A DNA stretch of 64,000 nucleotides, taken from contig NC_084811.1 of assembly GCF_963583255.1 (NCBI RefSeq), positions 14,712,088-14,776,087 on the forward strand. The letters are read 5' to 3'. The position numbers and the translations under genes were made by a program. Origin of the DNA: Pyrus communis (lineage: Eukaryota; Streptophyta; Magnoliopsida; Rosales; Rosaceae). The notes below the pieces were generated by a model, which was not told where the DNA came from, did no database searches, and saw nothing but the letters and a program-made list of their open reading frames with translations. Below, piece after piece: positions 4,199 through 52,651 of the stretch (positions are counted from its first letter, which is position 1; every line of letters starts with the position of its first letter).

Positions 4199-7100
4199 TG
4201 GTGCGTGATTTATACGCACACAAATTAAACCCTCTTTTTGTCAATTGTAGTATAAGTATAAGTAGGGATCGTTCTGGACCGGGGATTAGGAGGGATTGTT
4301 AATCACTTGGATTTGACTCAAAAACATAAAAACAAAGTTAAAAAACGTTCACAAAGACTCAAAGGACTCAAAACAAGTTCAAAAGACTCAAAACTGCCTA
4401 AAAACACTAACTAGGCAGTTTCTGACCTTAACCCCAATGTTGGACGAATTTAGGATTATGGCTTGATTCAAACGTAAAATAACAATATAAAACACTATAC
4501 TAGACTCAAAGAATGCAAAACTAAACTTTAAAACACTAAAACAAACCAAAAGACTCAAACATCACCCAAAACACTCAAAACAGCCTTAAAATCACTTTCT
4601 GGGCAGTTTTGAGCACTTTGGTGAATTTGGACGAATTTTGGGAAATAAATTGAATCAAAACACTTTAAAACATAAACTAAACAAAGTCTAAACACTAAAG
4701 AACAAGAAATTAAAGGGGGGGGTTAGGTTTTGACGAATTTAAACTAAAAGAACAGATTGTAAGTAAAAGCAAAATGTAAATGTGAATGTGTGATAGAATT
4801 GAATGGAATGAAGGCTAGCTAAGGGGTTCATCTCCATACATGTTATACTTGCATAATAAAATGATTTCCAATTGCATTTCAATAAACTATGATACTCAAC
4901 ACCCCAAGTTAACCGTGATGCACTAATTAACCTTCAAATCGTCCTAACGTTATTGAATTGGATGATGCATGCGACAATTCAAAACATTCCCCACAAGTCC
5001 TCAACATGAATGCATAGAAGAGGTACAAGCAAGAATCATTACGCTCTATGAAAATTATAAGTGTTGACGAGGCATTCGTTACTATGATTGCATGAAACTT
5101 ATGCCAAGAATTTGTTTAACACGATTGTTTATAAGCAACCTCCACTACTTGTGAATATAAGTTCGTAACTATTAGGTGAAACTCACTTATATTCTAGCGT
5201 CATATTCATGCATGAAAATTAAGCGCGCATTCTCAATAAACATACATAAATAAGTTATCAATCAAACGGTTAAACAAATTGAATCCACAACTTATGAAAC
5301 GCAATTAGAAGTAATCAAATCAAAATGCAAGCATAAACATATATTTCGAATTCCCCCCTAGCCAAGGGGGGTTTAGTTGAATTTAAACATTGGAATCAAA
5401 GAAACACCTAAACATTCCAACAACTCAAACTTGAATTGTATGAACGTTTAGGCACTCTTCTCTTCCATTCCTCATACGTACAAAACAAAGAGTATTGAAA
5501 TTAAACATTGAAATCAAAGAAACACCTAAACATTCCAACAACTCAAACTTGAATTGTATGAACGTTTAGGCACTCTTCTCTTCCTCTTCGTTGTAGCACA
5601 AGGTCTAAGGATAGTTTGATGGTGTGAATGGTTTGGGGAGTGGTTGGAGTGGCTGCAATGGAGGAGTGATAGGAGCATATTTAGGCGACTTAACTAGCTT
5701 ATTCTTGTGCATTTGTGCTATTATTTCTTAGTTAATGTCGTATTACAACTCAATTTCGTGTGTTTGTAGGTCCTATGGGTTAAAGTATCAAGAAAGTGCA
5801 TTTTGGTGCATTTTGGAGCTATTTTGGACACTAGGTGGTGAGCTTGCATGTGGGCTAACATGGATGGACGAATTTGGACTTCAAGAAGTTGGAAATGTGA
5901 TAAGAAGAGGAAGGAACTAAGCTAAGGACAAAGTGGATAAGGAAAGTGCAAGAAAAGAGGAAACATTATCCAAAATATTATCCAACCTTATCCAACATTA
6001 TCCAATTATCCAAAACATTATCCAAACCTTATCTCATCTTATCCTATCCAAACCTTATCATGTCTTACTCCTAATTACATGGGGACTTAAATGGATCATT
6101 CTAGAACCTATTTCTAGAAGCATCCTAGTCTAGAAGGCCCAAATCTGCCACAAAACCTATTCTTTCTAGAAACCCTAGAAAAGTGGCGCCCAAACCTTTC
6201 TAGAAGGCTTTACCTTGCCTTGCAAGCCAAGCTACCCTCTCCCCTAAATCAGCCGCACCTTCCTAGGCCTAATCCCTTTGGGATTCTGAATTCCAAGGCC
6301 TAATCCTTGTGGATTTGGGTATACAAATCAGTTTATAAAAATATGTGGGCCAAAACCTTCTCCTAAGTGGATTTGATTAACCCTAGCCGAATTCTAGGGC
6401 CCTAATCCACCAAACCTGTTAAGTAAACCCTAATCTAATAAACCCTAGGACTATATAAACATATTTTCAGCCACAAATTCGTACACCCCTTATGCTAGAG
6501 AGAAAACCCTTGTGCCGCACCTCCATTCTCCATTCTAAGCCTCCATAGACCTCCCTACACATCCATACATCTCTGCCGCACCCTTCCCCACCATAATCAA
6601 CCATCCTCCATCCCTCCATACTAGAAAACACCATCCAAAACCACCAATTCCATCACCCAAACTTTGTGCCGCAGCAAGGAGGAGGAAGAGGAGCCAATCT
6701 GTGCATCGAATCCATCTTGGAATTGCTGGGCATTTAGGTGTAATCTTTCTTATGATTTCAATGTTTAAATTCAATACTTTTTGTTGTGCAAGCATGAGGA
6801 ACTAATCCCCCCTTTGGCTAGGGGGGAAATTCGAAACCATGGTTATATTTGCATGATGATTTGATTACTTTCAGTTGTGATTGCATGAATGATGAATTCA
6901 ATTTACTTATCTATTTTAATTAAAACTAGTTTATGTATATGAATTGAGAGTGCACGCTTGATTTGCATGCATAAACATGATGCTAGGATATGAGGGAACT
7001 TCACCTAATCGTTGGGAACTCATATCCATGAGTAGTTAAGATTGTTGGTCGCAATTATGTTAAGTAAATTCTTGGCATAAGTATCATGCGCTTTCATAGT

Positions 7101-8585
7101 TACGAATGCCTCGTCAACACCTATGATTTCCATAGAACCTAATGATCTTTGATTGTCTTTCTATCATGCGCTTTCATATAGAAAACTTTTAAGGAATAAT
7201 TTGATTGCTATGCGCTAATTCCATTCAATTCAATGACCTAAGGGAAATCTGAGAGTTAATTTAAGCGTACCTAATTAACTTGGGGTGTTGAGGTTCATAA
7301 ATTCATCGAATAAGCAACTGGAGATTATTTTGTATGCAATTATGCCATGTGTGGAGAAAAACCTCCTAGCCATCTCACCATTCATTTAATTTCACCAATT
7401 TCGTCAGAATCTGCCTATTTTACATATTTGTTTTGTTTGTTTGATTTTCGTCAAAAACCAAATCCCCAATTGTCTTAGAGTGTCTAATTGGTCCAAATAT
7501 GTTTTAGATTGTGTTTTTAAGAGTTTTGAGTCAAGTTAGAATCAATTTTCGTCCAAAAGTGTGTTTAGGCTCAAAACTGCCCAGATTGTGTTTTTGAGGC
7601 AGTTTTGAGTGTTTTTAGCCTATTTTGAGTTTTGTGAACGTGTTTGAGTCTTTTTAAGTGAGTTTAAGTGTTTTAAAGATTAAGTTTATTTATTTGAGTC
7701 AGTTTAGAGTGTTTAGCAAGCCCTCCTAATCCCCGGTGTAAGAACGATCCCTACTTATTTATATGCTACAATTGTCAAAAGAGGGTTAATTTGTGTGTTA
7801 AGTTAATTTTCGCATCAAGGAGAAAAGTGTTTTGGTGGCTGCTGCAAGGGTGCGGAGAGGTTTTGACGAATTTTTGGAATATGGAAGAGTGAATGAGTGT
7901 GAATGAATGTTGTGTGAAGTGTGTATGGTTTTTATAGGGAGATGAATGGATGGGAGAGGGAACATGACAGCTAGGTTAAGTGAATGCATGTGCAAAACAG
8001 CTAGGATGGCTGAAATTGTAAGGGGAATGCATGTGCAATGTTGGAAATCTGATGGGAATGAATGATTAAATGTGCAATGAAGTGGAATGACAGCTAGGTT
8101 ATGATGATGAATGCATGTGGCTGATTTAATTGAATAGGAAAGCATGTGGATTTAATGGTTTAAAGGGTGAATGCATGTGGATGCATGTGTTGATGAATGG
8201 GATTGTGGAGTGGCTGGAATGATAAAAGAATAAAGGGTGCATGTGGGTTAATTAATTAAAGGGAGTGCATGTGCAATGTTGTTGTTGGTGCAATGATGGA
8301 GGAACAAGTGCATGTGGCTGAAATGTGGAAGGTGAGTGGCTACTTCAAGTAGGAATCCTTGTGACATCAACTCTTCAATTTCGTCCATTCCTTTTGCTCC
8401 AAGTATATGTTATCCCTTCCAAGTCCAATTTTGCTCCAAAATGCTCCAAAATGCATCTTTTTGCTTCCTTAGCCACATGAACCTAAAAACACACGAAAAT
8501 GGCTTAAACGCCAAAAACAACTATGAATTAACAATATAAATGCACGAAAACAAGCCATTTAAGTCGCATGAATATGCTCCTATCA
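4199..8585 (-). mobile_element. Element B 3' LTR, interrupted by a solo LTR
   Basis: Matches 13701-15930 almost base for base once 5667-7817 and one TSD copy are removed. It ends GCTCCTATCA at 8585, next to the polypurine tract. Its U3 differs from that of C: a CATGTGGAT-type low-complexity U3 replaces the 22-bp minisatellite, although the internal regions of B and C are nearly identical. No gene is present. Confidence 0.9.
5667..7817 (+). mobile_element. Solo LTR (2151 bp) of a divergent subfamily
   Basis: Starts TGATAGGAGCATATTTAGGCG and ends TTTTCGCATCA. It is flanked by the duplication AGGAG (5662-5666 and 7818-7822). No internal sequence is attached, so it is a solo LTR left by LTR-LTR recombination or an equivalent loss. 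It has a TATA box TATATAAA at 6462-6469. The C6/G6 hairpin is at 6807-6826, the conserved stem-loop at 6986-7027, and three ATGCGC-type words at 7086, 7166 and 7210. Its U3 resembles the LTR beginning at 62374 (TCTAGAA-rich). Confidence 0.92.
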
Positions 8586-8605
8586 AATACCCCCACACTT
8601 ATCTT
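8586..8605 (-). promoter_or_regulatory. Polypurine tract of element B
   Basis: Read on the minus strand this is AAGTGTGGGGGTATT directly before the 3' LTR. It is preceded by the conserved CTCGAGGACTAGCAAAAG. This is the expected plus-strand primer for reverse transcription. Confidence 0.85.
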
Positions 8606-10440
8606 TTGCTAGTCCTCGAGCAAAACAAAACAACAAAAGAACACGAAACTAGACAAAACGAACAAAACACAACCTACACCTTCCAACAATCGTCTCACGG
8701 ATTTCCAATGCACATGACAAGTTAAAAATCATTATTCCCACATATTTTAGCCATCTTTACACTCAAGTACATTCTTACTCATAGTCACCACATACTAGTT
8801 CACAATTAAGCATTTAAAACCATGATTTGAATGTAGTAACATGCCTTAGAGAATTTGCTCAATTCCTTACAAGATATGCACTCAATTTTCACTCAGATTT
8901 TCTGACTACACACCCTAAACTAGTTATATGTGAGAAGATTGATGTAAACATAAAAACGAACACTCACATATATGTATTTCAAAGGAAGCAATTTCTGGAG
9001 TTAATAAGCATGTTTAGATATGATCTCATGAATGGAATGCTACTACTTAGATGCAAGAACCAGTGACACCATAAGCTCATATCAATTCGAAACTCCACAT
9101 TTTGAAACACATAACACTCAAGATAGAAGTCAAAGGGTTGTAACGGGGCTAGGGTATTGGCTAACAATGAAAGGTGAAGGATAAACAAACATTCTTAAAG
9201 CAATAGTGAGCAAAGTATTGAATTAGGCACTTAGAATTCCCTTAAGAACGCAGAAGTCAACTTTGAACACCCAAGGGAAAGTCACACAAAACTTAGGGCC
9301 ATATTCAACTTTTTGGACCCTTTTTTCAACCATCAACGCTCGTTCGTTCATTCTTACTTATTTTCACTCCTTTTTTTTTTCTTTTCTTCTTCTTTTTCTT
9401 TTGAATCTCAAAACATACATATAAACGTAAGAACAAACTTTTACTCCCCCACACTCATTTTCTTGCATAATGTAACTCAAATGGAATTCATTTAAGTCAT
9501 GCTCACTATACTTTAAGAACAAGGGTATAGGAAAGTCCTACTCTAGGCTAGGTAAGGGGTGATGTGGGTTAACAAAGAATAAAGGCTAAACGAGGCTCAA
9601 CGGGGTTAAAACTTACAACAAATACGAAATATGGGAAGTAAGGCTATTTGGTTATGGTGGCAACTACACAACTTCATCTTGATATATGTTATGCAATTCA
9701 ATGTCATGCTTTGAATGAAACGGATATAAGTTCTAGCATTTAGTTCTATCATGATACAATTGCATTCTAAGTAGCAACCAAGCAAGGAATAATGAGATCA
9801 TGCAAGAACTTTAGAAAATAAAGAATCACAGAAAATAACTCTCCAAAGAAGGTAATGGCTCGAGTCTCACAGGGTTGTAGCGTTTGTTTGAGTTTCTTCC
9901 TTCAAGCATGTTACAAAAACGAATTTTTCTTTTCTGATTGCATGTGAAGTCATACATTATAACCATAACCAAGCATATACCAAGAGTAAATCAAACTTTC
10001 ATCCATGTTTATAACTCTCTTTAACAGTCATGCAATTACAAACCAAATCCTTATCATTGTGTTGGAAGGTACCCTAAGACACAAACACACAAAAACGACT
10101 CAAAACACTCTTTTTAGGCTTTTCAAAACATGTTTTTCAAATTTTTATGTGATTTTCGGAGTTATAAAACAAAACACACTAAAAACACTCTAAAACAACT
10201 TAAAAACACCTTAAAACAGCAAGGAACAACATTTGAAGTTATGGGTGATAAAATCCCACGAATTTGCATTAACAACATTAGTTACCCCCCCCACACTTAA
10301 ATCAAACATTGTCCTCAATGTTTTAAGCATAGATTCACACAAAACATAAGTAAACACACAAAAAGCATTTAAACATACTAAGCATGGCAGAATGTAATTA
10401 ACAAAGAGAAGAGTTTAGGGACGCAAATCTGGTTATGGAG
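8606..10440 (-). other. Element B 3' noncoding internal region
   Basis: About 1.8 kb with no credible open frame, homologous to 45037-46870 of the autonomous element G, where it lies between pol and the 3' LTR. It holds two further GTGTGGGGG tracts (complement at 9446-9456 and 10285-10298), a T-rich run near 9370-9410, and the conserved word TTGTGTTGGAAGGTACCCTAAG at about 10057. No envelope-like frame is seen. Confidence 0.75.
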
Positions 10441-11195
10441 TGTAAATTCCCTCTTCTCCTTGGTGATTGCATTGAGGCATTGATCTTGGTGATTCCACAG
10501 GCATACTCTTGAACTGGGCTGCATGATTCTTTTGGTCTCCTCCACTTGTTGATTTTCCTTTGTGCTACCGGGCTGGAGGATTCTTTTGGTCTTCCCCGAA
10601 GGTCTGAGCTTACCCCTTTGGTCTGTTTCTTTGTTCAATCTTTCCAATTCGTATTGAAAAGGGTTGGAGGATAACTCAGCCTATGTTTGTCTCCACATGC
10701 TTCAATGTATCATTTTCACTTGCCTTACTCGCTCCCCTTTGCAGAAGTGGTCCCTTCTCCGAAAGTGTATCAACCGTTGAAGATGACTACTCGAGAGCAA
10801 CGCTAGGTAAGCAATCAGGAATAGATTCCAGGCAGTTGGCTCCAGATCGGAAGATTGACTCCAAGTGCCAGCTGATTGCTTCTTTTACTTTGCCATGCGA
10901 GTAAGAACAAGGACAAAGAAAAAGACAGGGAAAGAGCATGATATGAGATACTTTTGCTTTTGACCTTGATGATATGAGATACCTTTGCTTTTGAAGAAGC
11001 GGTGAATGAATCAGCACATGTATTTGTTGTGCTGTTTCCTCCTGGGTCATATGTACTCCAGGCATCTGGTATCATCTTTGGGGAAGAAGAAAGAATTGAG
11101 TCTTTCGAAAGGCTTTGCTGGGAGTGCGCCCTCAGAGGTGAGGGAGAGTTGGGCATTTTCTTCAGGTTTGCCCTGCCATAAAAGACGAAGGTCGA

Positions 11196-11204
11196 CATAT
11201 ATAG
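11196..11204 (-). promoter_or_regulatory. TATA-like element pointing along the retrotransposon
   Basis: Minus strand CTATATATG, about 420 bp from the opposite TATA box of the antisense gene. It is conserved in C, A and H. It suggests the block between the two could act as a divergent promoter. Start sites are not known. Confidence 0.4.
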
Positions 11205-11284
11205 AGATAATATCAAGTGGTTGTACTTTTTACCCTTGTCGACAAACGTTTTGATCCCGCAAATCCGGCTCTTTGAAATAGTGG

Positions 11285-11378
11285 CGCCTCTTCGATCTTT
11301 GAATACGCCTCTTCGATTTCTGAGCAGGCGCCCCTTCGATTTCTGAACGACGCCCCTTCGCTTTCTGAACGACACGTG
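11285..11378 (+). promoter_or_regulatory. Four tandem ~22-bp repeats ending in a G-box
   Basis: Four units of the form CGCCyCTTCGATTTCTGAA start at 11285, 11305, 11328 and 11351. They end in the palindrome CACGTG at 11373-11378. A second CACGTG is at 11494-11499. Tandem repeats plus G-boxes upstream of a TATA box look like an enhancer. In the old copy X both G-boxes are altered (CACGTA and CATGTG). Confidence 0.55.
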
Positions 11379-11397
11379 GTAGTGCAGATGCGGCTCC

Positions 11398-11568
11398 TTT
11401 TGACAAAGCTGCACGCGTCTTCTGAAAAGCAGAGAAAGCGTCGCCGAACTTTGCGCTTGTCGGCTAAAGATGTGTAGATGCGATGATGGCCTCCACGTGT
11501 TTTCAGCTTTGTCAGAAATCTTTTGACAAAGTTGAACGCGTTTTCTGAAAAGCCGAGGGAGCGTCGCC
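11398..11568 (+). promoter_or_regulatory. 48-bp direct repeat pair with TTGAC cores
   Basis: Copy one 11398-11445 and copy two 11521-11568 both begin TTTTGACAAAG and end GCGTCGCC, separated by 75 bp. Each holds a TTGAC core, which is the W-box core. Together with the upstream tandem repeats they form the upstream region of the antisense gene. Confidence 0.5.
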
Positions 11569-11621
11569 TAAATTATGCCGGAAAATCCGGCTCTTTGAAT
11601 CGGTGGACGCGTCGTCTTGGC

Positions 11622-11630
11622 TTTTTATAG
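11622..11630 (+). promoter_or_regulatory. TATA box of the antisense gene
   Basis: TTTTTATAG lies about 120 bp upstream of the ATG at 11749 and is preserved in C, A, X and H. The leader between (CACACACACTCTGAAG...) has no upstream ATG that I noticed. Confidence 0.55.
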
Positions 11631-11748
11631 AGCTATCAATCACCCCAACACACACACTCTGAAGATTTCCCATTCCTGAAACTCGACTCCGGCCCTTTGT
11701 GAAATTTTAACTCCATCCACCCCTTCTCTTTGAACACTTTTGAAAAAA

Positions 11749-12420
11749 ATGGCAAACTCATCGAACCTTAGCTTAGATTTGAGTCTCAGCAGCGATCCGG
11801 TTGCGCCCCGTCAAGGTAATGTATGGCGCCCTTCTTTTTTATCTTCTAACGGTCCTCTTTCAGGTGAAGACTCTGTGATGCAGGACGCCACAACAGCTAC
11901 AATAGTAGCTAAAAACCTCCTCACTCCGAAAGATAGTAGGCTGCTGTCAGGACGGTCCGATGAGTTGGCCGTTCAAGAGTCCCTCGCACTTAGTGTTCAG
12001 TGTGCGAGTTCTGTGTCCAACATGGGCCAACGCCTGCTTGCTCGGTCCCGCCAAGTGGAATCGTTGATGGCAGAGGTGGAAAGACTTAAGCAAGAGAACC
12101 AGCAGCTTAAGTACGAGAATAGAAGTTTGCATGTGCTTGCAAATAACTATTCATCGGGGATGAAGAGGAAGCTTGATGAGCTGCAAGAATCTGAGGGTCG
12201 AATTCACAGTGACCGTCAAAGGCTTGCGTCTTATCTCCAGAGGCACCTTTTTCCTGGGTCATCCAGCGCTTGGCCAAGTATTGAGGCCTGGAATGCTCTA
12301 GCTCCGATGCCTCCCGCTCCGATGGCTTCCGCTCCGATGCCTCCCGCTTCTATGCCTCCCGCTTCTATGCCTTCCGCTTCTGCGCCTCGTAGTGGGGCTT
12401 CACGCAAACAACCTTTGTGA
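11749..12420 (+). CDS. Antisense cassette protein, EAR-like motif plus leucine zipper (copy in B)
   Basis: 223 residues with no intron, read opposite to the retrotransposon. The ATG at 11749 is chosen because it is conserved in all five copies and has the context AAAAAAATGGC. Residues 7-13 are LSLDLSL, two overlapping LxLxL motifs of the EAR repression type. Residues 102-165 look like a coiled coil, with leucines at 106, 113, 120 and 127 spaced by seven (leucine zipper). No clear basic DNA-binding region precedes it. Residues 185-212 are Met-Pro-Pro-Ala-Ser/Pro repeats. I do not recognise a named family. A nuclear co-repressor-like role is inference from the motifs only. Promoter-like sequence lies directly upstream. 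Confidence 0.7.
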   Translation: MANSSNLSLDLSLSSDPVAPRQGNVWRPSFLSSNGPLSGEDSVMQDATTATIVAKNLLTPKDSRLLSGRSDELAVQESLALSVQCASSVSNMGQRLLARSRQVESLMAEVERLKQENQQLKYENRSLHVLANNYSSGMKRKLDELQESEGRIHSDRQRLASYLQRHLFPGSSSAWPSIEAWNALAPMPPAPMASAPMPPASMPPASMPSASAPRSGASRKQPL

Positions 12421-12460
12421 AGCTCCACCTTTCTCCATGTTTAGTATCTTTCTATCTCTC

Positions 12461-12494
<34 letters not shown>

Positions 12495-12502
12495 AAATAA
12501 AA

Positions 12503-13588
12503 TCAAACGGCATGGAATTGGTCCTTGAATGGAAGGTGATACTTGAAGTGAACCGGCAATGGTTTGAATTCTAGTGTAGGTGCCTGATTCATAAAAAACA
12601 GCAAGTTAGTATAAAATGTAAAGGAATTTGAAAAAAACTTACTTGTTTTGTCCGACAAGAACTCAATGACAAACACCACTCCTTTGAAAGTTTCAGGGAT
12701 ATTGGACTTGGCCAGATTGCAAGTGATGGTTATGACTTGTCCAATGTCATCAAATTTAACTTCTTTGGATTTTGTGGTTTCAAGAACGTCCTCTTTGATG
12801 AATTCATGACATTCCCTACTTGTCACCTTTGAAAGGGCTTCCAATATGTCTTTTTCACCTTCTTCTTCCTTGGAAGTCTTGAATCTGCAAGGAATAAGGA
12901 TACTTGTTGGAACGGGGTTAAAAATAATGAAATTTGGAACAACCATACCTGTATTAGATGGCATAGGAGCAATAGGTGTCTCCGGTAAAGGTGTTTCCAC
13001 CCTTTCCGTGGGTTGGGTGTATTCCTCTTCCTTGTGATTTGATTTTGATGGTTGAGGGTCCGTTCCAACCTCCTTGTCACTTCTCAACATGATAGCATTG
13101 GTGTTTTCAAATTTTCCCTTCTGATTTGCAATGGTTGAACTAGGGAGTTCGCCTTGGTCTCGAAACTGTCCTACGAACTCCGCGATCTGCCCAATTTGCT
13201 TATCCAAGTGGTCCAACCTTTGTGGTGGCTGCATAGGCGTTGAATAGAACTCCTCATATGGCTGCCAATATCCTTCTTGTTGAGCCTCATTGTCTTGATT
13301 TTGTGAGCCCTGCACCAAACAAATTAATTCATTAAGCTTTTGATTATAATCTATTGACGAACTTGAGTTTGGTTGGGCATATTGAATATGAGGTTGTGGT
13401 GGCTGCCAATATCCTCCTTGTTGAGCATTTTGAGGTTCCCACCACATAGAGTTTGAATGATCACTCCAATCCGAATTGTAAGTATTGGAAAACACGTTAT
13501 TCCTTGATTGAAGATTAGATATATCAACTCTTTGCATTTGGGACCTTTCCATGAGCTGTGACAAAAGAGAAGCGTTATCAAGTGCCAT
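12503..13588 (-). CDS. Gag C-terminal remnant frame (copy in B)
   Basis: 361 residues from an ATG at 13588 (MALDNASLL), about 90 bases inside the primer site; the frame upstream of that ATG runs through the primer site and is not coding. The middle (QIGQIAEFVGQFRDQGELPSS) aligns with the C-terminal gag of element G. RFKTSKEEEGEKDILEALSKV and the tail QAPTLEFKPLPVHFKY align with G's protease frame. The capsid domain, zinc knuckle and protease are absent. The segment between, including KFDDIGQVITITCNLAKS, has no counterpart in G and I do not recognise it. It stays open in A, B and C, but function is unproven. Confidence 0.55.
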   Translation of the reverse strand: MALDNASLLSQLMERSQMQRVDISNLQSRNNVFSNTYNSDWSDHSNSMWWEPQNAQQGGYWQPPQPHIQYAQPNSSSSIDYNQKLNELICLVQGSQNQDNEAQQEGYWQPYEEFYSTPMQPPQRLDHLDKQIGQIAEFVGQFRDQGELPSSTIANQKGKFENTNAIMLRSDKEVGTDPQPSKSNHKEEEYTQPTERVETPLPETPIAPMPSNTGMVVPNFIIFNPVPTSILIPCRFKTSKEEEGEKDILEALSKVTSRECHEFIKEDVLETTKSKEVKFDDIGQVITITCNLAKSNIPETFKGVVFVIEFLSDKTSKFFSNSFTFYTNLLFFMNQAPTLEFKPLPVHFKYHLPFKDQFHAV

Positions 13589-13678
13589 GTTGTTCTTAAC
13601 AAACAAAACACAAATAAAAACTAAATCTAAAAGACAATACAGAAACAAACAATCCAAGGGATTAGCAAATTTTCTAAT

Positions 13679-13695
13679 CCCCGGCAACGGCGCCA
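13679..13695 (-). promoter_or_regulatory. Primer-binding site, tRNA-Asp type
   Basis: The plus strand reads CCCCGGCAACGGCGCCA, which is the 3' end of plant tRNA-Asp as I know it. It lies 5 bp from the LTR end. tRNA-Asp priming is typical of Athila elements. Confidence 0.88.
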
Positions 13696-13700
13696 AAATT

Positions 13701-15930
13701 TGGTGCGTGATTTATACGCACACAAATTAAACCCTCTTTTTGTCAATTGTAGTATAAGTATAAGTAGGGATCGTTCTGGACCGGGGATTAGGAGGGATTG
13801 TTAATCACTTGGATTTGACTCAAAAACATAAAAACAAAGTTAAAAACGTTCACAAAGACTCAAAGGACTCAAAACAAGTTCAAAAGACTCAAAACTGCCT
13901 AAAAACACTAACTAGGCAGTTTCTGACCTTAACCCCAATGTTGGACGAATTTAGGATTATGGCTTGATTCAAACGTAAAATAACAATATAAAACACTATA
14001 CTAGACTCAAAGAATGCAAAACTAAACTTTAAAACACTAAAACAAACCAAAAGACTCAAACATCACCCAAAACACTCAAAACAGCCTTAAAATCACTTTC
14101 TGGGCAGTTTTGAGCACTTTGGTGAATTTGGACGAATTTTGGGAAATAAATTGAATCAAAACACTTTAAAACATAAACTAAACAAAGTCTAAACACTAAA
14201 GAACAAGAAATTAAAGGGGGGGGTTAGGTTTTGACGAATTTAAACTAAAAGAACAGATTGTAAGTAAAAGCAAAATGTAAATGTGAATGTGTGATAGAAT
14301 TGAATGGAATGAAGGCTAGCTAAGGGGTTCATCTCCATACATGTTATACTTGCATAATAAAATGATTTCCAATTGCATTTCAATAAACTATGATACTCAA
14401 CACCCCAAGTTAACCGTGATGCACTAATTAACCTTCAAATCGTCCTAACGTTATTGAATTGGATGATGCATGCGACAATTCAAAACATTCCCCACAAGTC
14501 CTCAACATGAATGCATAGAAGAGGTACAAGCAAGAATCATTACGCTCTATGAAAATTATAAGTGTTGACGAGGCATTCGTTACTATGATTGCATGAAACT
14601 TATGCCAAGAATTTGTTTAACACGATTGTTTATAAGCAACCTCCACTACTTGTGAATATAAGTTCGTAACTATTAGGTGAAACTCACTTATATTCTAGCG
14701 TCATATTCATGCATGAAAATTAAGCGCGCATTCTCAATAAACATACATAAATAAGTTATCAATCAAACGGTTAAACAAATTGAATCCACAACTTATGAAA
14801 CGCAATTAGAAGTAATCAAATCAAAATGCAAGCATAAACATATATTTCGAATTCCCCCCTAGCCAAGGGGGGTTTAGTTGAATTTAAACATTGGAATCAA
14901 AGAAACACCTAAACATTCCAACAACTCAAACTTGAATTGTATGAACGTTTAGGCACTCTTCTCTTCCATTCCTCATACGTACAAAACAAAGAGTATTGAA
15001 ATTAAACATTGAAATCAAAGAAACACCTAAACATTCCAACAACTCAAACTTGAATTGTATGAACGTTTAGGCACTCTTCTCTTCCTCTTCGTTGTAGCAC
15101 AAGGTCTAAGGATAGTTTGATGGTGTGAATGGTTTGGGGAGTGGTTGGAGTGGCTGCAATGGAGGAGAAAAGTGTTTTGGTGGCTGCTGCAAGGGTGCGG
15201 AGAGGTTTTGACGAATTTTTGGAATATGGAAGAGTGAATGAGTGTGAATGAATGTTGTGTGAAGTGTGTATGGTTTTTATAGGGAGATGAATGGATGGGA
15301 GAGGGAACATGACAGCTAGGTTAAGTGAATGCATGTGCAAAACAGCTAGGATGGCTGAAATTGTAAGGGGAATGCATGTGCAATGTTGGAAATCTGATGG
15401 GAATGAATGATTAAATGTGCAATGAAGTGGAATGACAGCTAGGTTATGATGATGAATGCATGTGGCTGATTTAATTGAATAGGAAAGCATGTGGATTTAA
15501 TGGTTTAAAGGGTGAATGCATGTGGATGCATGTGTTGATGAATGGGATTGTGGAGTGGCTGGAATGATAAAAGAATAAAGGGTGCATGTGGGTTAATTAA
15601 TTAAAGGGAGTGCATGTGCAATGTTGTTGTTGGTGCAATGATGGAGGAACAAGTGCATGTGGCTGAAATGTGGAAGGTGAGTGGCTACTTCAAGTAGGAA
15701 TCCTTGTGACATCAACTCTTCAATTTCGTCCATTCCTTTTGCTCCAAGTATATGTTATCCCTTCCAAGTCCAATTTTGCTCCAAAATGCTCCAAAATGCA
15801 TCTTTTTGCTTCCTTAGCCACATGAACCTAAAAACACACGAAAATGGCTTAAACGCCAAAAACAACTATGAATTAACAATATAAATGCACGAGAACAAGC
15901 CATTTAAGTCGCATGAATATGCTCCTATCA
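13701..15930 (-). mobile_element. Element B 5' LTR
   Basis: 2230 bp, TGGTGCG to CTATCA, followed by the duplication AAACA. It contains a TATA-like TATAAAAA (complement near 15272-15281), a duplicated segment around CCTAAACGTTCATAC (14900-15085, displayed in reverse), the CCCCCC/GGGGGG hairpin near 14855-14873 and the conserved stem-loop near 14650-14700. No gene. Confidence 0.92.
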
Positions 15931-19648: not shown

Positions 19649-21640
19649 TAAATTCCCTCTTCTCCTTGGTGATTGCATTGAGGCATTGATCTTGGTGATT
19701 CCACAGGCATACTCTTGAACTGGTTTCCGCCCATCGTTGATTTTCCTTTGTGCTACTTCTTGAACTGGGCAGCAGGATGGTTCTTTTGGTCTCCCCCGAA
19801 GGTCTGAGCTTATCCCTTTTATCTGTTTCTTTGTTCAATCTGTGCAGGAGTGGTCCCTTCTCTGGAAGTGTATCAACCGTTGAAGATGACTACTCGAGAG
19901 CAACGCTAGGTAAGCAATCAGGAATAGGTTCCAGGCAGTTGGCTCCAGATCGGAAGACTGACTCCAAGTGCCGGCTGATTGCTTCTTTTACTTTGCCATG
20001 CGAGTAAGAACAAGCACAAAGAAAAAGACAGGGAAAGAGCATGATATGAGATACTTTTGCTTTTGACCTTGATGATATGAGATACCTTTGCTTTTGAAGA
20101 AGCGGTGAATGAATCAGCACATGTATTTGTTGTGCTGTTTCCTCCTGGGTCATCTGTACTCCAGACATCTGGTATCATCTTTGGGGAAGAAGAAAGAATT
20201 TAGTATTTCGAAAGGCTTTGCTGTGAGTGCACCCTCAGAGGTGAGGGAGAGTTGGGCATTTTCTTCAGGTTTGCCCTGCCATAAAAGACGAAGGTCGACA
20301 TATATAGAGATAATATCAAGTGGTAGTACTTTTTACCCTTGTCGACAAACGTTTTGATCCCGCAAATCCGGCTCTTTGAAATAGTGGCGCCTCTTCGATC
20401 TTTGAATACGCCTCTTCGATTTCTGAGCAGGCGCCCCTTCGATTTCTGAACGACGCCCCTTCGCTTTCTGAACGACACGTGGTAGTGCAGATGCGGCTCC
20501 TTTTGACAAAGCTGCACGCGTCTTCTGAAAAGCAGAGAAAGCGTCGCCGAACTTTGCGCTTGTCGGCTAAAGATGTGTAGATGCGATGATGGCCTCCACG
20601 TGTTTTCAGCTTTGTCAGAAATCTTTTGACAAAGTTGAACGCGTTTTCTGAAAAGCCGAGGGAGTGTCGCCTAAATTACGCCGGAAAATCCGGCTCTTTG
20701 AATCGGTGGACGCGTCGTCTTGGCTTTTTATAGAGCTATCAATCACCTCAACACACACACTCTGAAGATTTCCCATTCCTGAAACTCGACTCCGGCCCTT
20801 TGTGAAATTTTAACTCCATCCACCCCTTCTCTTTGAACACTTTTGAAAAAAATGGCAAACTCATCGAACCTTAGCTTAGATTTGAGTCTCAGCAGCGATC
20901 CGGTTGCGCCCCGTCAAGGTAATGTATGGCGCCCTTCTTTTTTATCTTCTAACGGTCCTCTTTCAGGTGAAGACTCTGTGATGCAGGACGCCACAACAGC
21001 TACAATAGTAGCTAAAAACCTCCTCACTCCAAAAGATAGTAGGCTGCTGTCAGGACGGTCCGATGAGTTCGCCGTTCAAGAGTCCCTCGCACTTAGTGTT
21101 CAGTGTGCGAGTTCTGTGTCCAACATGGGCCAACGCCTGCTTGCTCGGTCCCGCCAAGTGGAATCGTTGATGGCAGAGGTGGAAAGACTTAAGCAAGAGA
21201 TCCAGCAGCTTAAGTACGAGAATAGAAGTTTGCATGTGCTTGCAAATAACTATTCGTCGGGGATGAAGAGGAAGCTTGATGAGCTGCAAGAATCTGAGGG
21301 TCGAATTCACAGTGACCGTCAAAGGCTTGCGTCTTATCTCCAGAGGCACCTTTTTCCTGGGTCATCCAGCGCTTGGCCAAGTATTGAGGCCTGGAATGCT
21401 CTAGCTCCGATGCCTCCCGCTCCGATGGCTTCCGCTCCGATGCCTCCCGCTTCTATGCCTCCCGCTTCTATGCCTTCCGCTTCTATGCCTCCCGCTTCTA
21501 TGCCTTCCGCTTCTGCGCCTCGTAGTGGGGCTTCACGCAAACAACCTTTGTGAAGCTCCACCTTTCTCCATGTTTAGTATCTTTCTTTCTCTTTTTTTTT
21601 TTTTTATTTTATTTTATTTTTTTTTTATTTTTTTATTATT
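19649..21640. other. Gene cassette in element C
   Basis: Equivalent to 10441-12490 of B. The tandem promoter repeats start at 20388, with G-boxes near 20476 and 20597. It is shorter than B at its left end, lacking the stretch around 10648-10735. The T-rich tract after the gene has expanded to about 45 bp of T with interspersed A. Confidence 0.8.
20852..21553 (+). CDS. Antisense cassette protein (intact copy in C)
   Basis: 233 residues. Same start, EAR-like LSLDLSL and zipper leucines as the copy at 11749. Differences I see include a 30-bp in-frame duplication that adds one more MPPASMPSAS block to the C-terminal tail, Leu to Phe at residue 73, and Asn to Ile in the zipper at residue 117. The promoter block upstream is nearly identical to B, including both G-boxes. 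It lies inside C antisense to the gag remnant. With B's copy it is one of two uninterrupted versions in the window, so it is the best candidate for expression. The family is unknown to me. Confidence 0.7.
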   Translation: MANSSNLSLDLSLSSDPVAPRQGNVWRPSFLSSNGPLSGEDSVMQDATTATIVAKNLLTPKDSRLLSGRSDEFAVQESLALSVQCASSVSNMGQRLLARSRQVESLMAEVERLKQEIQQLKYENRSLHVLANNYSSGMKRKLDELQESEGRIHSDRQRLASYLQRHLFPGSSSAWPSIEAWNALAPMPPAPMASAPMPPASMPPASMPSASMPPASMPSASAPRSGASRKQPL

Positions 21641-34142: not shown

Positions 34143-36205
34143 TTTTATTTATGTTAATAAAAAAAAATAAAAAAAAATAAAAAAAAAAAAGAGAAAGAAA
34201 GATACTAAACATGGAGAAAGGTGGAGCTTCACAAAGGTTGTTTGCGTGAAGCCCCACTACGAGGCGCAGAAGCGGAAGGCATAGAAGCGGGAGGCATAGA
34301 AGCGGGAGGCATCGGAGCGGAAGCCATCGGAGCGGGAGGCATCGGAGCTAGAGCATTCCAGGCCTCAATACTTGGCCAAGCGCTGGATGACCCAGGAAAA
34401 AGGTGCCTCTAGAGATAAGACGCAAGCCTTTGACGGTCACTGTGAATTCGACCCTCAGATTCTTGCAGCTCATCAAGCTTCCTCTTCATCCCCGACGAAT
34501 AGTTATTTGCAAGCACATGCAAACTTCTATTCTCGTACTTAAGCTGCTGGATCTCTTGCTTAAGTCTTTCCACCTCGGCCATCAACGATTCCACTTGGCG
34601 GGACCGAGCAAGCAGGCGTTGGCCCATGTTGGACACAGAACTCGCACACTGAACACTAAGTGCGAGGGACTCTTGAACGGCCAACTCATCGGACCGTCCT
34701 GACAGCAGCCTACTATCTTTTGGAGTGAGGAGGTTTTTAGCTACTATTGTAGCTATTGTGGCGTCCTGCACCACAGAGTCTTCACCTGAAAGAGGACCGT
34801 TAGAAGATAAAAAAGAAGGGCGCCATACATTACCTTGACGGGGCGCAACCGGATCGCTGCTGAGACTCAAATCTAAGCTAAGGTTCGATGAGTTTGCCAT
34901 TTTTTTTCAAAAGTGTTCAAAGAGAAGGGGTGGATGGAGTTAAAATTTCACAAAGGGCCGGAGTCGAGTTTCAGGAATGGGAAATCTTCAGAGTGTGTGT
35001 GTTGGGGTGATTGATAGCTCTATAAAAAGCCAAGACGACGCGTCCACCGATTCAAAGAGCCGGATTTTCCGGCGTAATTTAGGCGACGCTCCCTCGGCTT
35101 TTCAAGAAAACGCGTTCAACTTTGTCAAAAGATTTCTGACAAAGCTGAAAACACGTGGAGGCCATCATCGCATCTACACATCTTTAGCCGACAAGCGCAA
35201 AGTTCGGCGACGCTTTCTCTGCTTTTCAGAAGACGCGTGCAGCTTTGTCAAAAGGAGCCGCATCTGCACTACCACGTGTCGTTCAGAAAGCAAAGGGGCG
35301 TCGTTCAGAAATCGAAGGGGCGCCTGCTCAGAAATCGAAGAGGCGTATTCAAAGATCGAAGAGGCGCCACTATTTCAAAGAGCCGGATTTGCGGGATCAA
35401 AACGTTTGTCGACAAGGGTAAAAAGTACCACCACTTGATATTATCTCTATATATGTCGACCTTCGTCTTTTATGGCAGGGCAAACCTGAACAAAATGCCC
35501 AACTCTCCCTCACCTCTGAGGGCGCACTCCCAGCAAAGCCTTTCGAAATACTCAATTCTTTCTTCTTCCCCAAAGATGATACCAGATGTCTGGAGTACAG
35601 ATGACCCAGGAGGAAACAGCACAACAAATACATGTGCTGATTCATTCACCACTTCTTCAAAAGCAAAGGTATCTCATATCATCAAGGTCAAAAGCAAAAG
35701 TATCTCATATCATGCTCTTTCCCTGTCTTTTTCTTTGTCCTTGTTCTTACTCGCATGGCAAAGTAAACGAAGCAATCAGCCGGCATTTGGAGTCAGTCTT
35801 CCGTTCTGGAGACAACTGCCTGGAATCTATTCCTGATTGCTTACCTAGCGTTGCTCTCGAGTAGTCATCTTCAACGGTTGATACACTTCCGGTGAAGGGA
35901 CCACTTCTGCAAAGGGGAGCGAGTAAGGCAAGTGAAAATGATACATTGAAGCATGTGGAGACAAACATAGGCTGAGTTATCCTCCAACCCTTTTCAATAC
36001 GAATTGGAAAGATTGAACAAAGAAACAGACCAAAGGAGTAAGCTCAGACCTTCGGGGAAGACCAAAAGAACCATCCTGCTGCCCAGTTTAAGAAGTAGCA
36101 CAAAGGAAAATCAACGATGGGCAGAAACCAGTTCAAGAGTAAGCCTGTGGAATCACAAAGATCAAAAGCCTCAATGCAATTACCAAGGAGAAGATGGAAT
36201 TTACA
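34143..36205. other. Gene cassette in element A (inverted relative to window)
   Basis: Same cassette as in B and C in the reverse orientation, because A is plus-oriented. It begins with an A-rich tract (34158-34190), then the broken gene, TATA at about 35019-35027, the 48-bp direct repeats, the tandem CGCC repeats and the second TATA (about 35445). A plus-strand frame 35237-35836 runs across the promoter block and is not counted as a gene. Confidence 0.8.
34229..34900 (-). pseudogene. Antisense cassette gene, premature stop (copy in A)
   Basis: Full-length homologue of the 223-residue protein, ATG at 34900 and ancestral stop at 34231-34229. Codon 164 (Gln in other copies) is TAG at 34411-34409, so only 163 residues would be made. 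These keep the EAR-like motif and zipper but lose the Met-Pro-Ala tail. The frame beyond is otherwise intact, consistent with a recent break. Confidence 0.85.
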
Positions 36206-40398: not shown

Positions 40399-40994
40399 AT
40401 GGCAAACTCATCGAACCTTAGCTTAGATTTGAGTCTCAGCAGCGATCCGGTTGCGCCCCGTCAAGGTAATGTATGGCGCCCTTCTTTTTTATCTTCTAAC
40501 GGTCTTCTTACAGGTGAAGACTCCGTGATGCAGGACGCCACAACAGCTACAATAGTAGCTAGGAACCTCCTCACTCCAAAAGATAGTAGGCTGCTGTCAG
40601 GACGGTCCGATGAGTTGGCCGTTCAAGAGTCCCTCGCACTTAGTGTTCAGTGTGCGAGCTCTGTGTCCAACATGGGCCAACGCCTGCTTGCCCGCTCCCG
40701 TCAGGTGGAATCATTGATGGCAGAGGTGGAAAGTCTTAAGCAAGAGATCCAGCAGCTTAAGTACGAGAATAGAAGTTTGCATGTGCTTGCAAATAACTAT
40801 TCGTCGGGCATGAAGAGGAAGCTTGATGAGCTGCAAGAATCTGAGGGTCGAATTCAAAGTGACCGTCAAAGGTTTGCGGCTTATCTCCAGAGGCACCTTT
40901 TTCCTGGGTCATACAGCGTTTGGCCAAGTATTGAGGCCTGGAATGCTCTAGCTCCGATGCCTCCCGCTTCGATGCCTTCCGCTCCGATGCTTCC
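40399..40994 (+). pseudogene. Antisense cassette gene truncated by element H (copy in X)
   Basis: ATG at 40399. About 198 codons match the 223-residue protein (EAR-like LSLDLSL and zipper present) before the LTR of H enters at 40995. The open frame then runs on into LTR sequence to 41058, which is spurious. Against B I count about nine replacement and seven silent differences by eye. That is below the excess of replacements expected without constraint, weakly suggesting past selection. Confidence 0.85.
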
Positions 40995-42962: not shown

Positions 42963-45016
42963 TGATGCAAAATATATTAAGCACACAAATTAAACCCTCT
43001 TCTGACAATTGTAGCAAAGTATGTAAGTAGGGATCGTTCAAAACCGGGGATTAGGAGGGATTGCTAAACTCTTGAAAACTGACCTAAGAAGTCCAAAACA
43101 AAGTTAAAAACACTAATTTGGACTCAAAGAATGAAAAACCAAAGTTAAAACACTAAAATAAAACAAAAACTCAAAACAGCAACTAGAAGACTCAAAACTG
43201 CCTAAAAACCACTTTCTGGGCAGTTTTGAGCACCTACACTAACTTGGACGAAATTGGTTGAAAACATGACTCAAAACACTTAAAAACATGAACCAAAACA
43301 ATTTCTAACTAAATTGAGACTTCAAAGTAAAGGGGGATTTGATTTGGACGAAATTAAAGTTGAGAAAACAGATTGCAAAGTAAAACTGATCTTGAAACGT
43401 TTTTGGGGTTTTTAATGGATGATGGACTAGTTAGGGGTTCTTTCTCCACACATGACAAGTATGCAAATGACTCGATTTCCAGTTATTCCTTCATAGAATT
43501 ATGAATGACAATGCCCCAAATTAACCGTGACATCACTAGTTAATTCTCAAGTTTTCCTTGTGTTATTGAATTGGATGACATCATACGACAACCCAAAGCA
43601 TTCTTCAAAAGTTCCTTACATGACATCATAATAAAGATACAATCAAAGATCATTACGTTCAATGAAAACTATAAGCATTAACAAAGCACTTGTGACTATG
43701 ACATCATGACACTTATGCTAGGAATTGAACTTAACGCGATTGTGACTAGCAATCTTCACTACTTGTGCATATAAGTGTGTGACAATTATGTGAAACAAAC
43801 TTATATTCTAGCATCATATTCATGCAAGCCAATTAAGTGTCGACCCCTAATTAACAAACACAAATACGTTATTACTCGCACAGTTAAGCCAATTGCATTC
43901 ACGATTCAAGAACTCATAACTGGAATTTATCAAATCAACTTGCACACATAGTTATGGCTTCGAAATCACCCCTAACCAATAGGGGTTTAGCCACTCATGT
44001 TCATAGCAAAATGAAAGGAAAATAAATTAAACATTGAAATCATAAAACGAATTACACCTAGAATGCACCAACGACGAAGCTTGAGCATCCAAGAGTCCTT
44101 CCTTCTTTCTCCTTGCTACGGCACAAAGGTGGATGGGATGGTTGGGATGTGTTTTAGGATCAGGGATTATGGAATTGGATGGAGGATAGGCACGGCAAGG
44201 TGTAGTGTTTGGTTGGAATTGTGTTTCTAGGATTTTAGGATGTGGAGAGTGGTGTGGCTAGATGAATGGACGAAAATTGGGTGAATGAGTGATTCCCCTA
44301 GTGCCTTGCTGCAAACCCTTATATATAGGGCTAGGAAAGGTTTTGAAACACTTAAAGGATATATGTGTGTAGCTTGGACAAGGTAGGACGGCTAGTGACA
44401 AGCTAGGAAGGCTAGGAGACAAGGTAGGACGGCTAGGAGACAAGCTAGGACGGCTAGTGACAAGCTAGGACGGCTAGTGACAAGCTAGGACGACTAGGAG
44501 ACAAGGTAGGACGGCTAGGAGACAAGGTAGGACGGCTAGGAGACAAGCTAGGACGGCTAGTGACAAGCTAGGATGGCTAGGAGACAAGCTAGGACGGCTA
44601 GGAGACAAGCTAGGACGGCTAGTGACAAGCTAGGACGGCTAGGAGACAAGCTAGGACGGCTAGGAGACAAGCTAGGACGGCTAGTGACAAGCTAGGACGG
44701 CTTGTTCTTCCAATACAGAAATTAGGCACCATGTGTGAATAGATAAAGCCTTCTAGAAATAAGGTTTTTAGGCCCCCTTGCAGCTCCCTAACTGAATTCA
44801 AGCCTTCAAATTCGTCCATCCTCATGCCTCCATGCTTGCACTATCCAATCTTGGCCCAAAAATGCTCTAGAATGCTCCAAATTGCTTCTTTTTGCATACT
44901 TTGACACTAAAACCTGAAATTGCACGAAAATGACTTTAAACACTAAACTAACTAAGGAAAAACAACATAAATGCATGAGAACAAGCCAATTAAGTCACAT
45001 AAAAATGCTCCTATCA
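42963..45016 (-). mobile_element. Element G 3' LTR
   Basis: TGATGCAAAATATATTAAGC to CTATCA. Hairpin CCCCTA/TAGGGG at 43969-43985. Stem-loop 43769-43806. The word ATGACATCAT occurs three times (43575, 43620, 43698), with GTGACATCAC at 43527. TATA region 44316-44330. Confidence 0.95.
44373..44703 (-). repeat. U3 minisatellite of element G, 20/21-bp units
   Basis: Tandem GACAAGCTAGGACGGCTAG units with alternating endings T or GA, lying between the TATA box and the U3 terminus. It is unrelated in sequence to the 22-bp arrays of the other LTRs. Confidence 0.92.
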
Positions 45017-45036
45017 AATTCCCCCACACTTAGCTT
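45017..45036 (-). promoter_or_regulatory. Polypurine tract of element G
   Basis: Minus strand AAGTGTGGGGGAATT beside the 3' LTR, preceded by CTCGAGGACTAGC. Confidence 0.87.
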
Positions 45037-46973
45037 TTGCTAGTCCTCGAGCAAAACAAAGAAATAAAACAAGACAAAACAAACAAACATAATCTAAACC
45101 TTCCAACGTTTGCCTCAGGGATTTCCAATGCACATGACATGTTAAAGATTATCATTCCCACAGATTTGAGTCAATTTAACACTTAAGCACATGCTTAATC
45201 ATAGTCACTACTTACTAGTTCACAATTAACCAATTAAAACAATGTTTTGAATGTAGTAACATGCCTTAGAGAATTCCCTCAATCCTTAATAGATTTGCAC
45301 TCTATTTTCACTCAGATTTTCTAACTACACACCCTATACTAGTTATATGTGAGAGAATTGATGTAGATATAAAAACGAATGCTCACATATATGTATCACA
45401 AAGAACGCAATTTCCGGACTTAATAGGCATGTTTAGATATGATCTCATGAATGGAATGCTACTACTTAGATGCGAGAACCAGTGACACCATATGCTCATA
45501 CCAAATTCAAACTCAACAAATTGAAACACATAACACTCAAGATAGAAGTTTAAGGGTTGCAACGGGGCTTGGGGTATTGGTTAACAAAGAAATGATAGGG
45601 AAAACAAACGTTCTTCAAGCATTAGTAAGCAAAGTAATGAAGTTAAGACTTAGAATTCACTTAGTTTGCAGAAATTAACTTAAAAATACAAGGGGAAGAC
45701 TTTAAACAACTTCTTGGGGCCGAATTCAACTTTTTGGACCCTTTCTTCAACAAACAACACCTTGGAACTTTTTTTCTCATATTGTTCAACTCTTTTCATA
45801 CTTTATTTATTTTTTTTTTTTTTCACGAATTTTTCTTTTCTTTTCTTTCTACCCGTGCTTATGGCACATAATTCTCAAAATAAAAACTTCCCCCACACTT
45901 GGTTTCTGTCATAAAGGAATTCCATTTGAATCATGCTTACTATACTTTAAGAACGAGGGTATGGATAGTCCTAATCTAGGCTAGGTGAGGGTAATGTGGG
46001 TTAACAAAGAAAAGGCTAAACAAGGCTCAATGGGGTTAACACCTAAACATATAATGGAGTAGGGCACACGGCTTTTTGGCTAAAGTGGTGGTCACTACAC
46101 AACTTCATCTTGAATATGTGTTATGCTAATCAATACCATGCTTTGAATGAAATGGGCATGACTTCTAGTGTTTGGAACTAAATGATGAAACGCCTTCTAA
46201 GTAGCAACCAAGCAAAGAATAATGAGATCATGCAACGATTTTAGAAAACAAAGAATGCACAGATTTGAACTCTCCAAATAAACGTTTAGGTTCAAGTCTC
46301 ACAAGGTTGTAGCGTTAATTTGAGTTCCTTCCTTCAAGCATGTTACAAAAACTGATTTTTTATTTTTATTTTTATTTTTATTTTTTATGATTGCATGTGA
46401 ATTCATAAGTTATAACCACAACCAAGCATAAACATAGAGTAAATCAAACTTTCATCCATGTTAATCACTCTCTTTAACAACCATGTATTTAAAAACCAAA
46501 TCCTCATCATTGTGTTGGAAGGTACCCTAAGACACAAACAAACACACAAAAACAACTCTTTTTTGGGTTTTTTAAAACAAATTTTTCAAATTTTTCTTTG
46601 ATTTACGGATTTTTACTTCAAAACATACTAAAACACACCAAAACTGCTTAAAAACACTTAAAAACAGCAAGGAACAAGTTTTGAAATAATGGGTGATAAA
46701 ATCCCACGAATTTGAATGAAAAACACTTAGTTACCCCCCCACACTTAAATCAAACATTGTCCTCAATGTTTTAAGCATAGAATCACACAAAGAAACACAC
46801 AAACAGCAAGTAAAACAACTAAATAGGCAGATTAGAAGGAATCAACAAAGAGAAGGGTTTAGGAACGCAAATCTGGAATTGGAGTGCTTTCTAGGTCTTC
46901 CTTTGTTGAATGGCATGGGTTGCCTCCCAAGTAGCGCTTTCTTTAACGTCTTGCAGCCGGACGAAGAACACGT
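45037..46973 (-). other. Element G 3' noncoding region
   Basis: About 1.9 kb between pol and the 3' LTR without an envelope-like frame. Two further GTGTGGGGG tracts (complement at 45890-45898 and 46734-46745). T-rich runs near 45806-45823 and 46358-46386. Shared in order and spacing with A, B, C and H. Confidence 0.8.
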
Positions 46974-50989: not shown

Positions 50990-51013
50990 GTTTTCATCAC
51001 CTTTGGGACCTGA

Positions 51014-52516: not shown

Positions 52517-52634
52517 GCACTAGTACCTAAAAAAAAACAAGAAACAAAAATAGGTCAGAAACTAAAACAAAATCAGAAACAAAGTGAAATAAATGAAACA
52601 AAAACAATCCAAGGGATTTAGCAAAGTTGCTAAT

Positions 52635-52651
52635 CCCCGGCAACGGCGCCA
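52635..52651 (-). promoter_or_regulatory. Primer-binding site of element G
   Basis: Plus strand CCCCGGCAACGGCGCCA, tRNA-Asp type, 6 bp from the 5' LTR. Confidence 0.9.

Follow-up and report, generated by a model that had tools for sequence, protein, structure and literature searches.

What is the gene that a family of pear retrotransposons carries at the place of pol, on the strand opposite to the element itself, and what might its product do? The question arises in a 64-kb stretch of the Pyrus communis genome (the window, that is, the whole 64,000-nucleotide stretch of DNA analyzed here), where related LTR retrotransposons are nested, one inserted into another.

Element B and its pol-bearing relative

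One copy of the antisense gene is hosted by element B, which has the following features:

4199..15930, minus strand: host element B, a non-autonomous gypsy-type LTR retrotransposon of 11,732 bp, with TSD AAACA on both sides and LTR ends TG...CA
13701..15930, minus strand: 5' LTR of element B
4199..8585, minus strand: 3' LTR of element B, interrupted by a solo LTR at 5667-7817 (TSD AGGAG)
13678..13695, minus strand: primer binding site TGGCGCCGTTGCCGGGGA, identical in elements B, A and H and in the pol-bearing element
12503..13711, minus strand: Gag-tail frame of 402 codons, with its first ATG near 13588
10443..12502, plus strand: cassette, at the place that pol has in the pol-bearing element, as defined by element comparison
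8590..8598, minus strand: polypurine tract GTGTGGGGG, common to B, A and the pol-bearing element

The interior of element B thus comprises the primer binding site, the Gag-tail frame, the cassette, a 3' region and the polypurine tract. Its LTR pair is 99.93% and 99.87% identical over aligned stretches of 1468 and 770 columns respectively, and this near-identity indicates that the element moved recently.

The window also contains a relative that retains pol:

42963..54711, minus strand: pol-bearing element, with TSD ATGTT and LTRs that are 99.76% identical
51017-52519, minus strand: Gag frame
49757-51013, minus strand: protease frame
46977-49820, minus strand: RT-RNase H-integrase frame of 948 codons

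Pfam recognizes Gag, RT, RNase H and integrase domains in this element above the cut-offs, together with a weak protease match of 18.4 bits that falls under the Pfam cut-off of 24.3. One in-frame stop lies between the Gag and protease frames, and pol is in a different frame; because the element is not in one open frame, it is best described as a candidate helper that is largely open and of unproven activity, and it may possibly act as helper of the cassette elements in trans. Its RT contains FMDDF, which we take to be Athila-like. Within the pol frame, RNase H ends at residue 469 and the integrase zinc domain starts at residue 569 of 948, and no match to a second RNase H (aRH) was found at E≤0.01. 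This additional RNase H is given as the mark that separates Tat from Athila in one survey (PMC6317226), so that the pol-bearing element, being without it, is best placed in Athila, and from its sequence it looks like a member of that lineage.

Comparison of the two elements bears out the original prediction that the cassette replaces pol, since B matches the pol-bearing element on both sides of it. The two share the primer binding site and the polypurine tract core, and their 3' regions are 80% identical over 1.9 kb, a match that covers 8590-10442 in B and reaches 46886 in the relative, overrunning the pol frame, which ends at 46977, by approximately 90 nt. On the other side the match resumes from position 12555 of B, in scattered pieces that correspond to the end of the protease frame, the Gag tail and the 5' leader. 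The Gag-tail frame of B aligns with Gag residues 351-501 of the pol-bearing element (43% identity over 167 columns) and also with residues 12-84 and 297-391 of its protease frame, and is without the capsid (Gag 139-231) and protease (147-241) stretches. Because these stretches are skipped, not only pol but also capsid and protease seem to be gone from the cassette elements. The Gag-tail frame of B has no Pfam match at E≤1; dN/dS for this frame is 1.27 for the pair B/C, 0.63 for B/A and 0.59 for C/A.

The antisense gene and its flanking signals

The cassette of element B contains the gene under study and several candidate signals around it:

11749..12420, plus strand: antisense gene of copy B, 223 aa and open, with an EAR-like N-terminus, a conserved core and a P/A/M-rich repeat tail
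11285..11373, plus strand: 22-bp tandem repeat in 4 copies, upstream of the gene
11373..11378, plus strand: first G-box, CACGTG
11494..11499, plus strand: second G-box, CACGTG
11624..11631, plus strand: TATA-like TTTATAGA (TTTATA at 11624), 125 nt upstream of the ATG
12496..12501, plus strand: AATAAA, a candidate poly(A) signal 76 nt beyond the stop, where the Gag-tail frame ends

As had been proposed, the gene lies on the strand opposite to its element, reading on the plus strand against a Gag-tail frame and an LTR order that are both on the minus strand, and it has the coding region on one side and the 3' LTR on the other. The TATA sequence, the two CACGTG sequences and the tandem repeat noticed earlier upstream of it are all present. 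Other copies of the gene, and the sequences associated with them, are found elsewhere in the window:

20852..21553, plus strand: antisense gene of copy C, 233 aa and open
34229..34900, minus strand: antisense gene of copy A, with a TAG in frame at codon 164
30949-40036, plus strand: element A, the carrier of copy A, with TSD CGGAT and LTRs that are 99.75% identical
40399..40994, plus strand: antisense gene of copy X, open until an LTR at 40995 truncates the gene
60244..60683, plus strand: antisense gene of copy H, with a deletion inside the gene
58258-60158: solo LTR of 1.9 kb in the leader region of copy H, with TSD ATTTC

The gene or a remnant of it is therefore present in all five cassettes of the 64-kb window, with two copies open (B and C) and three broken (A, X and H). 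The original prediction had spoken of five elements with the same cassette, which holds for B, C and A, while X and H are present only as damaged copies; its claim of an uninterrupted frame of about 223 residues in two copies is correct for B and for C, with the tail repeat of the latter lengthened in frame by 30 nt relative to B. Element A has the same layout as element B.

The TATA-like stretch is kept in 5/5 copies, and all eight CACGTG sequences of the window fall within cassettes B, C, A and H, two in each, with none in X. The AATAAA stretch (ACATAAATAAAATC) is present also in C and A, and is absent from the 110 nt examined for H. Because cassette copies B, C, A and H closely resemble one another in sequence, the conservation of these leader signals constitutes weak evidence for function. 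The succession TATA-ORF-AATAAA would nonetheless make up an opposite-strand transcription unit within the cassette. When the cassette was shuffled 300 times under a first-order Markov model, an ATG frame of at least 223 codons appeared once; this result is only suggestive, so it is the homologues that decide whether the frame is a protein gene.

Homologues and constraint

A search with copy B yielded 1379 homologues at E≤1e-3 among 2005 candidates, a more distant query yielded 1723 among 4047 candidates, and a third search 139 among 150. Among the matches listed, the best homologue is 96% identical and the best with a named organism, from Pyrus ussuriensis x communis, is 82% identical. The homologues form clusters (at 90%) of 2492 and 1030 member sequences in apple databases, counts that are pooled over many assemblies and do not represent copies per genome. 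Some Pyrus entries are labelled 'S ribonuclease', which we read as a database misnomer; Pfam recognizes no RNase in copy B. A match to a viral contig, at a single locus and involving 28 coiled-coil residues, was taken as chance.

These searches bear on the suggestion, made in the original prediction, that a captured host gene may be spreading; a gene spread with the element in this way might encode a co-repressor adaptor or a zipper protein. The promoter-like region that the gene has of its own and the plant-type EAR-like motif would fit such an origin, but copy B matches no Pfam family at the cut-off, its matches to solved structures are mostly short coils, and the clusters reach 2492 members. 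Moreover, among the best 120 each of the 1379, 1723 and 139 homologues, those with a named organism are all from Malus or Pyrus and no host-type orthologue is found, a scope within which a diverged host relative could be hidden. We therefore regard host capture as highly unlikely.

We aligned 54 homologues of 50-96% identity, all of them annotated open frames (alignment A1, from which four non-redundant sequences were left out), and found 11 invariant columns among the 54 sequences. Constraint was assessed over residues 24-170 by neutral codon simulation on the family tree with mean identity matched, at kappa values of 2 and 4. The mean BLOSUM62 score of the observed differences is +0.09, versus −0.58 and −0.56 (sd 0.10 and 0.09) under neutrality at kappa 2 and 4 respectively, and ten core columns are invariant versus about two in the neutral simulation; 0/60 simulations at either kappa reached the observed BLOSUM62 score or invariant count. 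Core columns of at least 90% identity are not above neutral in number (63 versus 61 and 60). Gamma shape by region was too coarse a measure, with only 6 usable rows in the tail.

Within the window, dN/dS was calculated from the five copies. The B/X pair has 11 synonymous and 13 nonsynonymous changes (dS 0.084, dN 0.029, dN/dS 0.34), and its noncoding leader differs at 18 of 359 positions (5.0%). The other pairs with X give 0.43 (C/X), 0.44 (A/X) and 0.42 (X/H). Values of 0.31 for B/C, 0.42 for B/A and 0.32 for B/H rest on 4, 7 and 2 changes, and that of 1.26 for C/A on five; C/H and A/H have 2 and 3 nonsynonymous changes, respectively, and no synonymous ones. The ratio is thus below 1 in most window pairs and, together with the protein-level simulation, this departs from the dN/dS near 1 that the original prediction had named as telling against it. 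We conclude with good confidence, on the strength of sequence comparison, that the antisense frame is a real protein gene and that its family is under constraint.

Homologues and constraint also rule out a chance ORF. A reverse-strand shadow of an old pol was likewise rejected, as three of four pol pieces gave no match and there was one match of 13 residues (E 0.028). It is decidedly unlikely that the antisense RNA is the working product, pairing with the genomic RNA, making siRNA and limiting copy number with the ORF as a passenger: the unit and the Gag-tail frame converge, the unit is by position complementary to the genomic RNA, and a dsRNA role is among those discussed for antisense ORFs in the literature (PMC7264820), but the amino acid changes are far more conservative than neutral and dN between B and X is below the divergence of the leader. 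Nor does a decaying relic, a former accessory gene that is now carried without function, account well for these data, and we consider it quite improbable. Three of the five window copies are broken and young pairs such as C/A are without constraint; against this, copy B is open in an element with nearly identical LTRs and the constraint is family-wide.

Predicted structure and motifs

The AlphaFold model of copy B has one long helix at residues 71-167, with block means of pLDDT of 81-99, mostly above 90. A short helix at 47-57 is uncertain, and the remainder is of low confidence (mean 68.4, pTM 0.40). The long helix covers the heptad leucines pointed out earlier at residues 106, 113, 120 and 127, and the lack of any predicted coiled coil, which the original prediction had listed as adverse to it, is thus not what we find. 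These leucines are present in copy B and conserved in 54/54, 54/54, 52/54 and 53/54 sequences, respectively; Tyr134 is conserved in 54/54 and KRK (139-141 in B) in 51/54.

Copy B has no Pfam family at the cut-off, and searching with the 54 members gave a best E of 3.6e-5 and 21 families, mostly generic coiled coils and some of them cytoplasmic. Solved structures in the PDB gave 10 matches, the best with an E of 0.12 and mostly to short coils. Neither a basic region nor a DNA-binding domain is recognized by Pfam in copy B or the 54 members, and a bZIP transcription factor was rejected because there is no basic region or bZIP match in Pfam. With no recognized DNA-binding domain, an adaptor reading of the protein is missing a target.

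EAR-motif repressors are characterized by an LxLxL or DLNxxP motif, with DLN or LxLxL beside an interaction domain. Copy B conforms to this definition through LSLDLSL, which is located at residues 7-13 as first reported. The N-terminus is the most variable part of the protein, with a mean pairwise identity of 0.47 versus 0.72 in the core, and the pattern [LF]xLx[LVIF] occurs in 50 of the 54 N-termini, compared with a mean of 1.5 and a maximum of 6 in shuffles that treat the 54 related sequences as independent. An LxLxL or DLN core is found in 46/54 N-termini (strict LxLxL in 22/54 and DLN in 26/54), and DLNxxP in 0/54 family members. Three of the four non-redundant sequences outside A1, in which the N-terminus was examined, are without the EAR-like motif. 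The cassette protein therefore shares the LxLxL/DLN core with EAR-type repressors but differs from them in having neither DLNxxP nor a recognized DNA-binding domain. The retention of two EAR-like core types in a fast-changing stretch is the best hint of function that the sequences offer.

Relation to known antisense genes

Antisense genes of plant gypsy elements have long been known, with no function found for them (PMC7264820, PMC11963269). The original prediction was right to recall them, such ORFs having been described in Grande, RIRE2, Retand and bean elements, as a review sets out (PMC7264820). According to the same review, gene23 of maize Grande is driven by a promoter of its own and its product is nuclear (PMC7264820). 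Grande gene23, of maize and teosinte, resembles the cassette gene in being antisense within a gypsy element, but Grande carries it besides pol whereas the cassette gene replaces pol, a comparison made by description only.

Grande is counted with the Retand lineage, whose TRP28 antisense ORFs are reported in a 2025 survey from 97% of young Retand clusters and are suspected there of a regulatory role (PMC11963269). The TRP28 ORFs share with the cassette gene their antisense orientation, a position near the 3' LTR and conservation in young elements, and the likeness extends to tandem repeats nearby in about half and to some elements being non-autonomous (PMC11963269). TRP28 is, however, a different protein from the cassette gene product: 0/54 members match TRP28 (PF04195) at E≤0.01, and copy B has no such match at E≤1.

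Beans provide a further parallel, in that the pvRetro13 group has an opposite-strand ORF2 in 15 gypsy families, of which pvRetro137 and pvRetro143 are listed with ORF2 and without an RT domain (PMC4093653). An antisense gene combined with a lost RT is thus not new. Bean ORF2 is of 211-939 aa with SMC similarity in some cases (PMC4093653); in Pfam, the cassette protein (54 members, ORF2 being compared by description) has weak generic coils only and no SMC family. In the same account the RT-bearing ORF2 families do not group with Athila4, Calypso and Cyclops2 but form a separate clade (PMC4093653), in contrast to the likely Athila placement of the pol-bearing element here.

The position of the cassette gene, opposite gag-pol and before the 3' LTR, is that of an aORF-3R or eORF-3'R, and within the window all five cassettes have the gene or a remnant of it, with a sequence that is conserved in the family. 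The eORF-3'R class consists of reverse-strand extra ORFs in the 3' part of gypsy elements, like the cassette gene; the survey had a lower limit of 250 codons, so that ORFs of 205-224 aa would have been unseen by it (PMC6317226). In the open PubMed Central literature we found no description of the cassette protein family and nothing relevant on retrotransposon proteins with EAR motifs. What is new is the protein family, its occurrence in what looks like another lineage (Athila), and its presence in elements lacking pol, capsid and protease. An antisense trait thus appears in what seems to be the Athila lineage, and is retained by elements that lost pol.

A possible function for the cassette protein

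We tentatively favor the interpretation that a non-autonomous gypsy-type family in the apple/pear tribe carries this as an accessory gene, whose product may be a nuclear co-repressor adaptor tuning transcription. Besides the Gag-tail frame, the cassette elements would keep what they need in cis (the LTRs, the primer binding site and the polypurine tract). Reverse transcriptase, integrase, capsid and protease would presumably be supplied by the Athila-type relative, and the place of pol is taken by the putative opposite-strand transcription unit (TATA, ORF and AATAAA). The product, of about 24 kDa, is predicted to dimerize via its long coiled coil, which would link the protein to itself or to a partner. 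It is most likely nuclear, and the basic KRK patch and the co-repressor motif would fit an adaptor, with an LxLxL/DLN-type N-terminus that would recruit a TOPLESS-type co-repressor. The target could be transcription of the element family, with the protein acting in trans as a product that all copies share, or that of host silencing genes. The original prediction of an element-encoded repressor protein thus stands as regards a conserved antisense protein, motifs kept in the family and a heptad region that is one predicted helix; repressor activity as such is something that we infer.

A second reading, next in likelihood, makes the protein part of the particle or integration complex. It would then serve the element's particle or DNA by attaching to the pre-integration complex or the Gag tail, and would guide nuclear entry or packaging. 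Retention of the gene alongside a Gag-tail frame that is without the capsid and protease stretches is consistent with such a role, as is the commonness of long coiled coils in assemblies, and nuclear entry is discussed for antisense ORFs of other elements in the literature (PMC7264820). But the pol-bearing element of the window carries no antisense gene, showing that not every member needs the gene, and the EAR-like N-terminus is left without an explanation. We consider this reading unlikely.

Returning to the nuclear adaptor, its strongest form would be that a retrotransposon family evolved a nuclear co-repressor adaptor of its own, with an EAR motif mounted on a coiled coil, a motif that the family retains while it changes between two forms, LDLSL-type and LDLN/FDLN-type; stated in full, this is rather improbable. 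If true, an adaptor made in antisense by pol-less elements would work in trans at the chromatin of the host or of the elements, might draw TOPLESS away from, or towards, silencing targets, and would give a selfish pol-less element simultaneous control over its helper and its host. The family is small, numerous in apple databases and measurably constrained, and because its protein offers a single interaction domain and a single short motif for mutation, it makes the function of antisense genes testable by a simple binding assay.

For some of the homologues the source is an ENA contig of about 0.9-1.8 kb, near the predicted transcript size, and for others an ENA contig as long as 38.7 kb. Should the short contigs be transcriptome assemblies, expression would be shown.

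Frames and G-boxes in the antisense-gene leader

The promoter region of the antisense coiled-coil gene is overlapped in two of the non-autonomous elements, B and A, by a sense-strand frame with internal repeats, and perhaps this frame is a mere by-product of those repeats. The corresponding frame in copy C is shorter, at only 156 codons, and a 199-codon stretch of the one in B, searched against Pfam, returned no matches. The antisense-gene leaders also hold all eight CACGTG sites of the 64-kb window.

10818-11567 (-): sense-strand frame in B, 250 codons, internal repeats
35078-35833 (+): sense-strand frame in A, 252 codons, internal repeats
11373, 11494, 20476, 20597, 35152, 35273, 57960, 58081: CACGTG sites

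At its other end the antisense gene carries an in-frame 15-bp repeat of Ala-Pro-Met-Pro-Pro type (12301-12388 in B, and at the equivalent place in C). The B and C repeats differ in length by 30 nt, or two units, leaving the frame intact.

Related elements and solo LTRs

The pol-bearing element lacking the antisense gene (42963-54711) has LTRs that are 99.76% identical, indicating a recent insertion, and its Gag, protease and RT-RNase H-integrase frames are all long; a single in-frame stop separates Gag from protease, and RT-RNase H-integrase lies in a different frame. The Gag-tail frame stays open in three elements despite the absence of the capsid and protease stretches, and would encode a linker-only protein. 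Two nested solo LTRs with target-site duplications (TSDs) are themselves signs of LTR recombination.

12503-13711, 22085-23293, 32931-34142: Gag-tail frame, ~402 codons, open
5667-7817: solo LTR, 5-bp TSD AGGAG, nested in related element
58258-60158: solo LTR, 5-bp TSD ATTTC, nested in related element

Database naming

Among the homologues listed (the best 120 of 1379), Pyrus entries label these retrotransposon proteins 'S2-RNase' or 'S ribonuclease'. The naming appears to be an error of annotation and could misdirect self-incompatibility studies.
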